From Cyanobium sp. CZS48M (lineage in GTDB: Bacteria > Cyanobacteriota > Cyanobacteriia > PCC-6307 > Cyanobiaceae), in assembly GCA_030373145.1 (NCBI GenBank), contig JAUCZK010000001.1:248001-312000 (forward strand): a stretch of 64,000 nt of DNA. The letters are read 5' to 3'. The stretch's first letter is position 1; every line of letters starts with the position of its first letter. The position numbers and the translations under genes are program-made. The notes under the pieces were generated by a model, which searched no databases, had not been told where the DNA came from, and saw only the letters and a program-made list of their open reading frames with translations. Positions 3,213-36,240 of the stretch are shown here, piece after piece.

Positions 3213-3393
3213 TCTCGGTGAGGACCGACCGTTCTGGTCTTGCTCCGCTGGGCTCTGGGCAGTTCCTGGACGGGCCAGTCGATCAACCTCTCCCGACTAG
3301 GCTGAACCCAGGTGTCAGGCGACAGCGAAAACTGGTCCAGATGCGACACGAAATCTGGCCCCCCTCTGCGAGCCACTGACCAGGCCCAGCGCC

Positions 3394-4770
3394 ATGACCG
3401 CGGACCTGTCACCTCTGGAGCAGAGCTCCCGGGATGCGGCATTGGAAACACCAGAGGATGTCCAGATGATCCTTGGCCTCACCGCAGCTGGGTGGGGCCG
3501 CAGGCGGATCGCCAGGGAACTGGGCTGCTCGCCTGAAACCGTCCGTAAGTACCGGCGGCAGGGAGGCTGGGAGGCCTACGGCAAACCCCGGCGGATCGGC
3601 GTTCTCGATGGTCAGTGCGGCTGGCTCAGGGAGCGGTTCCTTGCCCACAAAGGAAATGCCGATGTGGTGCGCCAGGAGCTGGCCAGCGAGAAGGGCATCG
3701 CCGTGTCACTGCGCACCGTGGAGCGGGCGGTGGGGCAGTGGCGGCAGGAGCTGCGGGCTGCAGCGCTGGCGACGGTCCGGTTTGAGACGCCGCCGGGCAA
3801 GCAGTTGCAGGCCGATTTCGGTGAGACCTACAGCTGCATCGCCGGCGAGAGGGTCAAGGTTCACCTGTGCGTGCTGACCCTGGGCTACTCGCGGCGGCTG
3901 GTGGTGCGGGCCTATCGGCACGAGCGCCAGGCGAACTGGCTGTTGGCGATGGAGGAGGCCTTCCGCCACTGGCGGGGCGTGCCGGCCGAGGTGTTGTTCG
4001 ACAACGCCCGTGCCCTGGTCAAGCAGCACGATCCGGCTCGCCAGGTGCTGGTGTTCAACGAACGGCTCGATGCCTTTGCCCGCTACTGGGGATTCCTTCC
4101 CAAAGCCTGCCGGCCCTACCGGGCCAGGACCAAGGGGAAGGACGAGCGCGGCGTCGGCTACGTCAAGACGAATGCGGTGGCCGGCCGGGAGTTCGCCAGC
4201 TGGCAGGCGCTGGAAGCGCACCTGGAGCACTGGAGCCGGGAGGTGGCCGACGTTCGCATCCACGGAACGACCGGTGAACAGCCGCTGGTGCGTTTCCAGC
4301 GGGAGGAGGCAGCTGCCCTGCAGCCGTTGCCCCATAAGCCGTCGTTCCTGGCGGAGCGGGAGCTGGTGCGGGTGGTCCACAACGACGCCTGCGTCGAGGT
4401 GGAGGGCAACTGGTACAGCGTCCCCTGGAAGCTGCTCAAGCAGCGGGTGAGTGTTCTGCTGCGGGATCAGCAAGTGCTGATCCGCCATGGCGGCCGTGTC
4501 GTCGCCCGACATGAGCGCGTGGTGGCCAATCGGCGCCATCGCTCCGTGCTGCGGGGGCACTGGGATGGCCTGGTGCCAGCGCCGCAGCAGGACTTGGCCG
4601 AACGGTCACTGCCCTCAGCCGATGGCGCCAGCTGCGTTGGGTCCGCCTCAGCCACGTCCCCGCCCTGTGGGGGCGGAACGCGGCGGCGGACCGGCGTGAT
4701 GCGCAGCTCAGAACTGGCCCGCTCACTGGCCGTCTATGCCGCCGAGGTGGGCGAGGAGGTGGCGGCATGA
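3394..4770 (+). CDS. istA: IS21-family transposase IstA
   Basis: A 458-residue transposase. An N-terminal helix-turn-helix (around residues 25-60, GRRRIARELGCSPETVRKYR) binds the element ends. A DDE integrase core follows, with acidic residues in QLQADFGE and VLFDNARALV and the last one in KGKDERGVGYVKTN. The C-terminal part contains the beta-rich domain usual for IstA. It ends with ATGA, overlapping the start of istB, as is normal for IS21 elements. No frameshift or stop is seen, so it looks functional. Confidence 0.94.
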   Translation: MTADLSPLEQSSRDAALETPEDVQMILGLTAAGWGRRRIARELGCSPETVRKYRRQGGWEAYGKPRRIGVLDGQCGWLRERFLAHKGNADVVRQELASEKGIAVSLRTVERAVGQWRQELRAAALATVRFETPPGKQLQADFGETYSCIAGERVKVHLCVLTLGYSRRLVVRAYRHERQANWLLAMEEAFRHWRGVPAEVLFDNARALVKQHDPARQVLVFNERLDAFARYWGFLPKACRPYRARTKGKDERGVGYVKTNAVAGREFASWQALEAHLEHWSREVADVRIHGTTGEQPLVRFQREEAAALQPLPHKPSFLAERELVRVVHNDACVEVEGNWYSVPWKLLKQRVSVLLRDQQVLIRHGGRVVARHERVVANRRHRSVLRGHWDGLVPAPQQDLAERSLPSADGASCVGSASATSPPCGGGTRRRTGVMRSSELARSLAVYAAEVGEEVAA

Positions 4771-5630
4771 GCCCCGCCAAAACCGGGCAACCAGATCGTC
4801 GCCTGCAGCCGATGGCCACGATGCCGCCTGTCCCCATCGAGGATCTCGACGACATGCTCAGCCGCCTGCGACTGACTGCTATTCGGGATCAGCTCGACAA
4901 CCTGCTTGAGGAAGCGGCCCGCAAGGAGCTGAACCTGCGTGAGGCGTTGACCTGGCTGTGTGCGGCGGAGATCGCCCGCAAGGACCAGCGGCGAATCGCG
5001 ATGGCGATGAGCATCGCCAAGTTCCCGTTCGTGCGGACCCTGGAAGGGTTCGAGTACGAGGCCCAGCCCTCGCTCGATCCGGGCCAGATCCGGGAACTCG
5101 CCACCTGCCGCTGGGTGGCCAACGGCGACACCCTGCTGCTGCTCGGTCCGCCTGGAGTAGGCAAGACACACCTGGCCGTCGCTCTGGGGCGTGAGGCGGT
5201 GAGCAAGGGCTACACCGTTCAGTACGTCTCGGCGATGGAGCTGATCTCCACCCTCGCCCGGGCCCATAACCAGACGGCGCTGGAGGCCCGCCTGAGCCAG
5301 TACGGCAAGAGCAAGCTGCTGATCATTGACGAGCTGGGCTACCTGCCGCTGGAGCCCGATGCGGCACACCTGTTCTTCCAACTGATCTCACGCCGTTACG
5401 AGCGCGGCAGCGTCCTGATCACCTCCAACCGCCCCGTCATGGAGTGGGGAGAAGTGTTCGGCGATCAGGTCGTCGCCACCGCGATCCTCGATCGCCTGCT
5501 GCACCACAGCCATGTGCTGACCGTGCGGGGCGACAGCTACCGCCTGCGCGAGAAACGCCGCTCCGGTCTGATCAGGAGCAGCAGTGCGGTGAGCACCATC
5601 CCAGCCACCGGGGAGGGAGGAAGCCCATGA
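4767..5630 (+). CDS. istB: IS21-family AAA+ helper ATPase IstB
   Basis: A 287-residue DnaC-like AAA+ ATPase that assists IstA in target choice and strand transfer. The Walker A motif GPPGVGKTHLA lies around residue 130 and the Walker B motif LLIIDELGYLPL around residue 190. Sensor and arginine-finger regions follow (ITSNRPVMEWGEVFGD). The start codon overlaps the istA stop. The gene is complete and about 110 bp upstream of the right inverted repeat of the element. Confidence 0.94.
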   Translation: MSPAKTGQPDRRLQPMATMPPVPIEDLDDMLSRLRLTAIRDQLDNLLEEAARKELNLREALTWLCAAEIARKDQRRIAMAMSIAKFPFVRTLEGFEYEAQPSLDPGQIRELATCRWVANGDTLLLLGPPGVGKTHLAVALGREAVSKGYTVQYVSAMELISTLARAHNQTALEARLSQYGKSKLLIIDELGYLPLEPDAAHLFFQLISRRYERGSVLITSNRPVMEWGEVFGDQVVATAILDRLLHHSHVLTVRGDSYRLREKRRSGLIRSSSAVSTIPATGEGGSP

Positions 5631-5789
5631 GCATCCCGTTCCTCCCGATCCACCCCCATCCACATCACCAACGACTGATGAGCAAGACCAACCGGCGCCG
5701 GCTACGGCGTCAACAAACCGCAGCTACAGCCTCACAGGGTGGGCCAGATTTCGTGTCGCCGGAGGACCAATTCCGGATGTCGCTTGACA

Positions 5790-6889
5790 GCAGTGGTGGA
5801 TGCTGCTGGTGGCGATCCTCGCGATCTACCGCTTCGCGGAAGGCTGACGCCTACAGCGGCCAGGGCTCGCTGATGGGCATGGAGCGTTTTGCCAAACGCC
5901 ACCGCAAGACGCTGAACGAGCTGCTGGGTACGCAGGTCGCCAAGCCGCCATCGGATTCCACGTTTCGGCTGCTGCTGGCCCAGCTGGATGTGGAGGGCTT
6001 TGAGGGCCTGCTGCAGCAGTGGATGGCGGCCCAGCCCGGCGTGACAGAGACCGTTGACACCCTGGTCTGTGACGGCAAAACCCTGCGGGGCTCAATCGAT
6101 GAAACCGCCTTCGGCGCAGCGCGTTTTATCGCCCAGGTGAGCCTCTACTCCAACAGCCTGGGTGTGGCCATCTCCCAGAGCACCTACGCCACCGATGCCG
6201 GCGGTGAGATCGCCGCGCTGCGCCTGCTGCTGGATCGCGTGGAGCTCGAGGGGCTGCTGGTGCAGGTTGATGCGCTGCATGCCAACCGCCCTTTTTCCTC
6301 TACCTCGAACAGCGTGGCGCCGACTTTCTGATTGCGGTGAAACACAGCCGCCACAAGGGTTTTCAGGAGATCAAGGATCGCTTGACCTACGCCAGGAAGG
6401 CACCGCTGCAGGCCAGCAAGCGCGAGCGCAAACACGGCCGAGACATCACCTGGACCCTGCGGGCCATGCCGGCTCCGGAGTGGGTAGTGGAGAACTGGCC
6501 TGGCAGCGCCACGGTGATCGCCGTGCGCGGCAAGGGCATCCGCGATGGCAAGCCAACCGACGAGACTCGTTACTACGTCACAAGTCTGCGCACTGGCGCC
6601 GAGGCTCTGCTGCGTCACGTGCGTGACCGTTGGTCGATCGAGAACTCCTGGCACTGGCCTAGCGACACCCAGCTGCGGGAAGACGCCCACCGCTACCGCG
6701 AGGTCAACGGGGTTCAGATCATGGCCACGCTCCGGAGCCTGGCTATGAACGCGCTGCGGCTCGATGGGTTCTGGTCGATCACCGAGGGGCTGGCCGCCCT
6801 GGCCCACGACACCAGGGGTTTACTGGCATTGCTGGGCTGGCGAGAACCTGCTCAGCCACAGGCTTCTGGGTAACTTCTAATGAGCCCTG
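5790..6889 (+). pseudogene. ISAs1-family transposase, 5'-truncated and frameshifted
   Basis: The ISAs1 (H-repeat-like) transposase signature is clear: CDGKTLRGS, VDALHANRPF, ADFLIAVKHSRHKGF and the C-terminal DRWSIENSWHW with LREDAHRYR. The N-terminal part is missing, cut where the IS21 right end stops. The first bases read QWWMLLVAIL in one frame, then an extra stretch near 5820-5845 moves the frame and brings a stop. The core continues in a second frame to 6331 and the C-terminal third is one frame back (-1) from about 6290 to 6873. The second switch falls on CCCTTTT. A second, more decayed copy lies at 35698-36240. The sequence ending near 6889 (gagccctg) may be the element's right tip. 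Confidence 0.85.
6289..6295 (+). other. Slippery-type heptamer at the ISAs1 frame switch
   Basis: The heptamer CCCTTTT fits X XXY YYZ, with zero-frame codons CCT TTT. A -1 slip would re-pair both tRNAs on CCC TTT and carry translation from the core frame (which stops at 6331) into the C-terminal frame. The other ISAs1 copy in this window has CCCTTTC at exactly the equivalent codons (36015-36021) with the zero-frame stop at the equivalent place. No downstream stem-loop was established by eye. Confidence 0.4.
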
Positions 6890-35621: not shown

Positions 35622-35697
35622 ATGGACAGGCTGGGGCCAGGTACAGCCCAATGCCATGGCCCGCCTCAGTCGCGCGCCCGCCTGGGGTTCGCTTGCC

Positions 35698-36240
35698 GCA
35701 GTGGTGGATGCTGCTGGTGGCGATCCTGTCGATCCTGAGCAACCGCAGAAGCCTCGAACACCCTGGTCTGCGACGGCAAGACCCTGAGGGGCTCGATCGG
35801 TGAGACCGCTTCTGGCGCAGCGCGTTATGGACTCTGGTCGTCTGATTCTAAATGGCCCGGGTTTGCCTTTACTCCAACAGGTTCGGCGTGGCCAATGCCC
35901 AGACCACCTACGCCACCGATGCCGGCGGTGAAATCCAGACCCTGCGCCAGCGGCTGGATCGTGCGTGGAGTTCGATGGGGCGCTGGTACAGGCGGACTCA
36001 CTGCATGCCAACCGCCCTTTCCCCTCGACATCGAGCAGCATGACGCCGATGTCCTGATCACCGCGAAACACAGCCACCGCAATGGGTTTCAGATCATCAA
36101 GGACCAGCTGACCTACGGCAGCGGGTGCCGCTCAAAACCAGCCGGCAAGAGCTGATCAAGGGCGGGCCATCACCTGGACCCAGCGAGGCATACCGGCTCC
36201 AGAGAACGCTGCCCAGGTATACCAACGATTACGGGGAAGT
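35698..36240 (+). pseudogene. ISAs1-family transposase remnant
   Basis: A much decayed relative of the copy at 5790-6889. Recognisable pieces are PQWWMLLVAILSIL, TLVCDGKTLRGSIGE, TYATDAGGEIQTL, DSLHANRPF and, one frame back, DADVLITAKHSHRNGF and RAITWTQRGIPAPE. A large internal deletion joins the N-terminal piece directly to the DGKTLRGS region, an unrelated stretch of about 35 bases lies near 35826-35860, and several further frame changes follow. The frame switch after HANRPF sits on CCCTTTC (36015-36021), the same place as in the other copy. Confidence 0.82.

Follow-up and report, generated by a model that had tools for sequence, protein, structure and literature searches.

The window analyzed here, a 64,000-nucleotide stretch of the Cyanobium sp. 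CZS48M genome, carries two copies of an ISAs1-family insertion sequence (Table 1). In copy 1, the N-terminus is broken by a 25-nt insertion near position 5827, the left end of the element is absent, and the truncated end abuts an IS21-like end (5741–5790). The latter belongs to an IS21-like element at 3313–5790 with an IstB-like ORF (4767–5630), whose right end adjoins copy 1; the missing left end of copy 1 was not found on the far side of this element. The half of copy 1 in the -1 frame matches Pfam DDE_Tnp_1 with 39.1 bits (cutoff 23) and contains RWSIENSWHW, the motif with the catalytic Glu. In copy 2, parts of the interior and of the ends are gone; both copies are decayed and probably inactive. 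Elsewhere in this genome, a third copy (L009, on contig C3) shows the same break with CCCTTTTCCC. An Rfam search of the window gave no match.

The earlier note had described a shift of -1 directly after HANRPF in both copies. It placed the shift at CCCTTTT in one copy and CCCTTTC in the other, and the zero-frame stop at a matching codon about 35 nt further on. Our reading of the two junctions agrees, and the two zero-frame TGA codons are homologous. At the slip site, the zero frame of copy 1 reads CAT GCC AAC CGC CCT TTT TCC TCT and its -1 frame runs on as FFLYLEQRGADFLIAVKHSR; the zero frame of copy 2 reads CAT GCC AAC CGC CCT TTC CCC TCG and its -1 frame runs on as FPLDIEQHDADVLITAKHSH.

The 25-nt insertion of copy 1 (TACCGCTTCGCGGAAGGCTGACG) occurs at the identical place in the N-terminal part of the element in three genomes (5827–5851 in the window, 2489–2511 in L049, and 333–355 in L163) and introduces an in-frame TGA soon downstream. 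Near-matches with one or two mismatches are present in four further genomes.

Table 1 Features of the two ISAs1-family copies in the window.
Feature	Coordinates	Strand	Evidence
Copy 1, ISAs1-family element, decayed, without its left end but with the right terminal repeat	5791..6889	+	blastn alignment to the intact G143 element (79.6%, 1099 bp)
Copy 1, transposase N-terminal half, zero frame, TGA-terminated	5853..6331	+	tblastn, query residues 22-168 in a single frame; break near residue 20
Copy 1, slip site C_CCT_TTT (C3T5C2 tract)	6289..6295	+	Sequence; equivalent position in 98/104 copies
Copy 1, zero-frame TGA stop, 33 nt past the heptamer	6329..6331	+	Homologous stop in relatives
Copy 1, transposase C-terminal half, -1 frame, open to stop, 193 aa	6292..6873	+	Open reading frame
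Copy 1, right terminal repeat ACTTCTAATGAGCCCTG	6872..6889	+	Alignment to the G143 element end
Copy 2, ISAs1-family element, remnant, several frame changes and deletions	about 35690..36204	+	blastn to the G143 element, 73% and 90% pieces
Copy 2, slip site C_CCT_TTC	36015..36021	+	Sequence
Copy 2, zero-frame TGA, 33 nt past the heptamer	36055..36057	+	

Relatives of the element and conservation of the frame break

The joined proteins of both main subclades have the normal length of ISAs1 transposases and match the ISAs1 profile NF033564 with 192.2 and 205.1 bits (cutoff 70; model positions 2–314 of 314), and the match to PF01609 is also above its cutoff. The motifs CDGKTLRGS and QADALH lie in the zero frame, and the Glu of RWSIExxWHW is invariant in the -1 frame; the putative Asp, Asp, Glu triad was assigned from these motifs and the profile. 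Elements in the genomes G231, G127, and G109 have CAGGG ends, a length of 1242–1264 bp, and readable 10-bp target duplications, within the size of about 8–10 bp expected for ISAs1.

According to the earlier note, conservation of the break among cyanobacterial homologs would favor a programmed event, whereas intact one-frame homologs with one extra base at this point, broken copies being rare, would argue against it. When 201 genomes of the same family were searched with the joined protein, relatives were present in 56, where nearly all of them match as two pieces meeting at residues 165–170; reading at base level gave a -1 relation in 61 of 63 distinct copies. The addition of named genomes (Synechococcus, Cyanobium, Vulcanococcus, and others) brought the set to 104 distinct copies. 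The -1 break lies at the same codon in 98 of them, the remaining six having extra indels, and a clean one-frame gene is found in none of the 104. Such agreement is far from chance, and both halves are fully open in 51 copies. Judged from these sequences, the -1 break is a fixed trait of one ISAs1 clade in picocyanobacteria (Synechococcus, Cyanobium, and Vulcanococcus).

Apparent one-frame matches in G184, G237, and G124 (L042, L051, and L054) arose from stops that had been read through, and a base-level check revealed the same slip region in each, plus other lesions. Two frame-equal cases (L170 and L236) are degraded copies with extra indels.

The elements with T-type sites form a single clade (support 100/100), indicating one common origin. 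In their sister group, from other cyanobacterial families, one-frame elements are mixed with others that have an A-run break at the same codon. Matches on proteobacterial and actinobacterial plasmids are mostly in one piece, among the matches listed, and a distant blastn search of phage records found no relative. A cyanobacterial-type ISAs1 relative with 65% identity (L182) lies on a contig titled Bifidobacterium breve MAG (CALPNT020000132.1), which is probably a mislabelled or contaminated bin.

Where both halves are open (51 copies), the N-terminal half has a median dN/dS of 0.28 and the C-terminal half, read in the -1 frame, one of 0.35. For the eight codons around the GADF block past the slip site, pN/pS is 0.47 in the -1 frame versus 1.33 in the zero frame. 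These ratios indicate that purifying selection acts on both halves. Copies that are 100% identical and carry terminal repeats occur within single genomes (five in G143 and three in G231), and an ISAs1 profile search of G143, G231, G127, G109, and G099 found split genes only. Since G143 and G231 combine identical copies with split genes only, the transposase that moved these copies most likely comes from a split gene.

Candidate slip sites

The site of the window's subclade reads CGC CCT TTT TCC, and both window sites belong to the H_HH.U_UU.Y heptamer type, which ranks among the most efficient in E. coli (PMC4066793). The heptamer CCCTTTY pointed out in the earlier note is characteristic of this subclade; elsewhere in the clade it is replaced, usually by xCG TTT TTC. 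TTT TTC is present in 39 of 43 open copies of three sister subclades, and a small number of open copies depart from the usual site (CCG TTT TCG, CCG TTT TCT, and CCG TTT ACG). In a relative carried by a Synechococcus elongatus plasmid, the site is GCT TTT TTC and forms a full T_TTT_TTC heptamer. Nearly all open copies have a shift-prone motif (C_CCT_TTT/C, T_TTC, or T_TTT_TTC) at the junction; for most of the clade this is the tetramer T_TTC after G. U_UU.C ranks as the second-best tetramer in E. coli (PMC4066793); the tetramer is a weaker motif there and required a stimulator. The slip site is retained in clades that are about 45–50% identical in protein, and the conserved slip codons partly reflect shared descent. 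Otherwise open copies keep both the break and its pyrimidine slip site, in line with the regulated frameshift that the earlier note had offered as one option.

In the three subclades, G is the last base of the codon preceding TTT in each of the 43 open copies, though this codon encodes Pro, Ala, Ser, Val, or Arg. This G holds the run at T5, so that the stronger T_TTT_TTC heptamer is avoided, and its invariance possibly reflects selection for weak slipping. In the sites of subclades B, C, and D (e.g., L069 and L106), G precedes TTT TTC in every open copy.

Local folding of 44 sequences against codon-preserving shuffles revealed no extra-stable RNA structure within 120 nt past the slip site (mean Z about 0), and no clear Shine–Dalgarno stimulator was seen on inspection by eye. 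About 180–270 nt past the slip site, the 44 representatives fold more stably than codon-shuffled controls (mean Z -0.72), which could be a distant element or chance.

Proposed programmed frameshift and competing explanations

We consider it very probable that the window sites are inherited programmed -1 frameshift signals, fixed in one ISAs1 clade of picocyanobacteria, with slippage that is most likely ribosomal. Under this proposal, most ribosomes would stay in the zero frame and stop at the conserved TGA. Their product, about 200 residues long, would comprise the N-terminal region and the first two catalytic Asp residues and lack the catalytic Glu. A minority would slip by -1 on C_CCT_TTT/C, where tRNA-Pro and tRNA-Phe can both re-pair as CCC TTT; in the sister subclades, slipping would take place on T_TTC within xCG TTT TTC or on T_TTT_TTC. 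The slipped ribosomes would produce the full transposase of about 350 residues, with a junction peptide of the ANRPFFLYLEQR type. As only a minority would slip, the slip is proposed to limit the amount of transposase, with a possible inhibitory role for the short product.

The slip could instead be made by RNA polymerase, an extra U on the T run in some transcripts restoring the frame. Such a U in the T5 run would yield the same protein, polymerase slippage is known at U5C4 of a Roseiflexus IS630 element (PMC5009743), and related cyanobacterial ISAs1 elements have their break at this codon in A7/A8 runs, some requiring -1 and some +1 or -2, which fits polymerase slippage there. In the present clade, however, the runs are short (T5, shortened to T4 or T3 in some copies, among them window copy 2), whereas selection against slippage-prone runs has been seen at about nine in many genomes (PMC1088944). 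Moreover, the C_CCT_TTY heptamer is retained where the T run shrinks, and the direction is always -1, degraded copies aside. We therefore regard slippage by RNA polymerase as unlikely, and ribosomal slipping as the best reading of the sites.

A second explanation invokes two cooperating separate proteins, the second translated from an internal start or after re-initiation close to the TGA. The Synechococcus elongatus IITB6 relative has two overlapping genes in RefSeq, and in the window's subclade a GTG lies shortly past the TGA (6337). In 49 of the 51 open copies, however, the -1 frame has no ATG, GTG, or TTG from its upstream stop to the conserved GADF block, which would make this block unreachable by ordinary internal starts. 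Selection nevertheless acts on this block in the -1 frame, where its match to one-frame ISAs1 proteins involves no change in length, so that two separate proteins seem very improbable.

Least credible is a single broken ancestor with transposase supplied from elsewhere and a functionless break, the other option of the earlier note: the clade does have one origin and many copies are decayed, both window copies included, but this ancestor was not dead, given the purifying selection on the half behind the break as well as before it, the recent multiplication of frame-split elements as identical copies in complete genomes without a one-frame ISAs1 gene, and the persistence of the site in clades about 45–50% identical in protein, and we rejected a plainly broken ancestor on the grounds of selection on both halves and recent copying.

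Comparison with known frameshifting elements

Recoding in insertion sequences is already well known: frameshifting has been described for IS1, IS3, IS5, and IS630 (PMC5009743) and noted for IS982 (PMC7335449). In the literature searched, we found no paper reporting frameshifting in ISAs1, and the clade, its pyrimidine sites, and their position in the catalytic domain look undescribed there. The remark in the earlier note that frameshifting is not a general trait of ISAs1 holds, with the addition that RefSeq appears to treat two members of the family, ISAcma12 and ISAzs22, as frameshifted. ISAcma12 has a single RefSeq CDS of 1090 nt, a length that implies joined frames, and in this and other A-run cyanobacterial ISAs1 elements the frame breaks at the homologous codon (DALHxQK), as in the present clade. 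The A-run elements differ in that they use A7/A8 runs, CAA AAA AAA C (needing -1) or CAA AAA AAC (needing +1 or -2), and form a separate clade mixed with one-frame elements. Breaks at the homologous codon in A7/A8 runs were seen at L141–L144, L146–L149, L153, L157, L240, L245, and L246, some of them in identical multi-copy elements (G404). ISAzs22 from Azospirillum has a RefSeq CDS of 1138 nt with the transposase over two frames, which likewise implies joining; its break at a TTTCCCCCC tract is a different site, about 40 codons beyond the cyanobacterial one. Two copies on plasmids of Azospirillum sp. B510 (L242 and L243) break at TTTCCCCCC; in RefSeq, the frames of one copy appear to be joined, while another is split.

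We tentatively suggest that cyanobacterial ISAs1 elements may have repeatedly placed recoding at one fixed codon of the catalytic domain, just past the second Asp, swapping the slip chemistry (A8, A7, T5, T6C, and C3T5). Selection would then have kept the position and not the motif, and the short product with two of the three catalytic residues would be a functional regulator rather than a by-product.

The GeneTack DDE_Tnp_1 clusters comprise PF01609 transposases with conserved -1 or +1 frame transitions that were proposed to be programmed (PMC3711429). These clusters are described as A-rich, with transcriptional realignment likely, and are named by Pfam domain only (PMC3711429).

The proposed frameshift would explain annotation that is split or discarded, such as the two partial genes of Synechococcus elongatus IITB6, the one RefSeq record of the clade examined, and copies in Synechococcus and Cyanobium labelled as pseudogenes may be active. 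The natural site variants (heptamer versus tetramer, T5 versus T4) offer a ready series for relating slip strength to transposition.

IS3 and IS1 elements (PMC5009743, PMC4066793) resemble the ISAs1 clade in having overlapping frames, the second in -1, with a slippery heptamer or tetramer and a fusion product that is the transposase; U_UU.C and U_UU.U_UU.C also occur in their elements. Among the motifs that the text consulted gives for IS3/IS1, C_CCT_TTY does not appear (PMC5009743, PMC4066793), and the ISAs1 clade, unlike IS3/IS1, has no nearby RNA stimulator that we could find. In IS3/IS1, the shift links a DNA-binding ORF with a catalytic one, whereas that of the ISAs1 clade lies within the catalytic domain, a few codons past the second Asp. 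With this clade, one part of ISAs1 would join the transposon families that restrain themselves through frameshifting, its motif and position differing from those of the classic IS3/IS1 elements.
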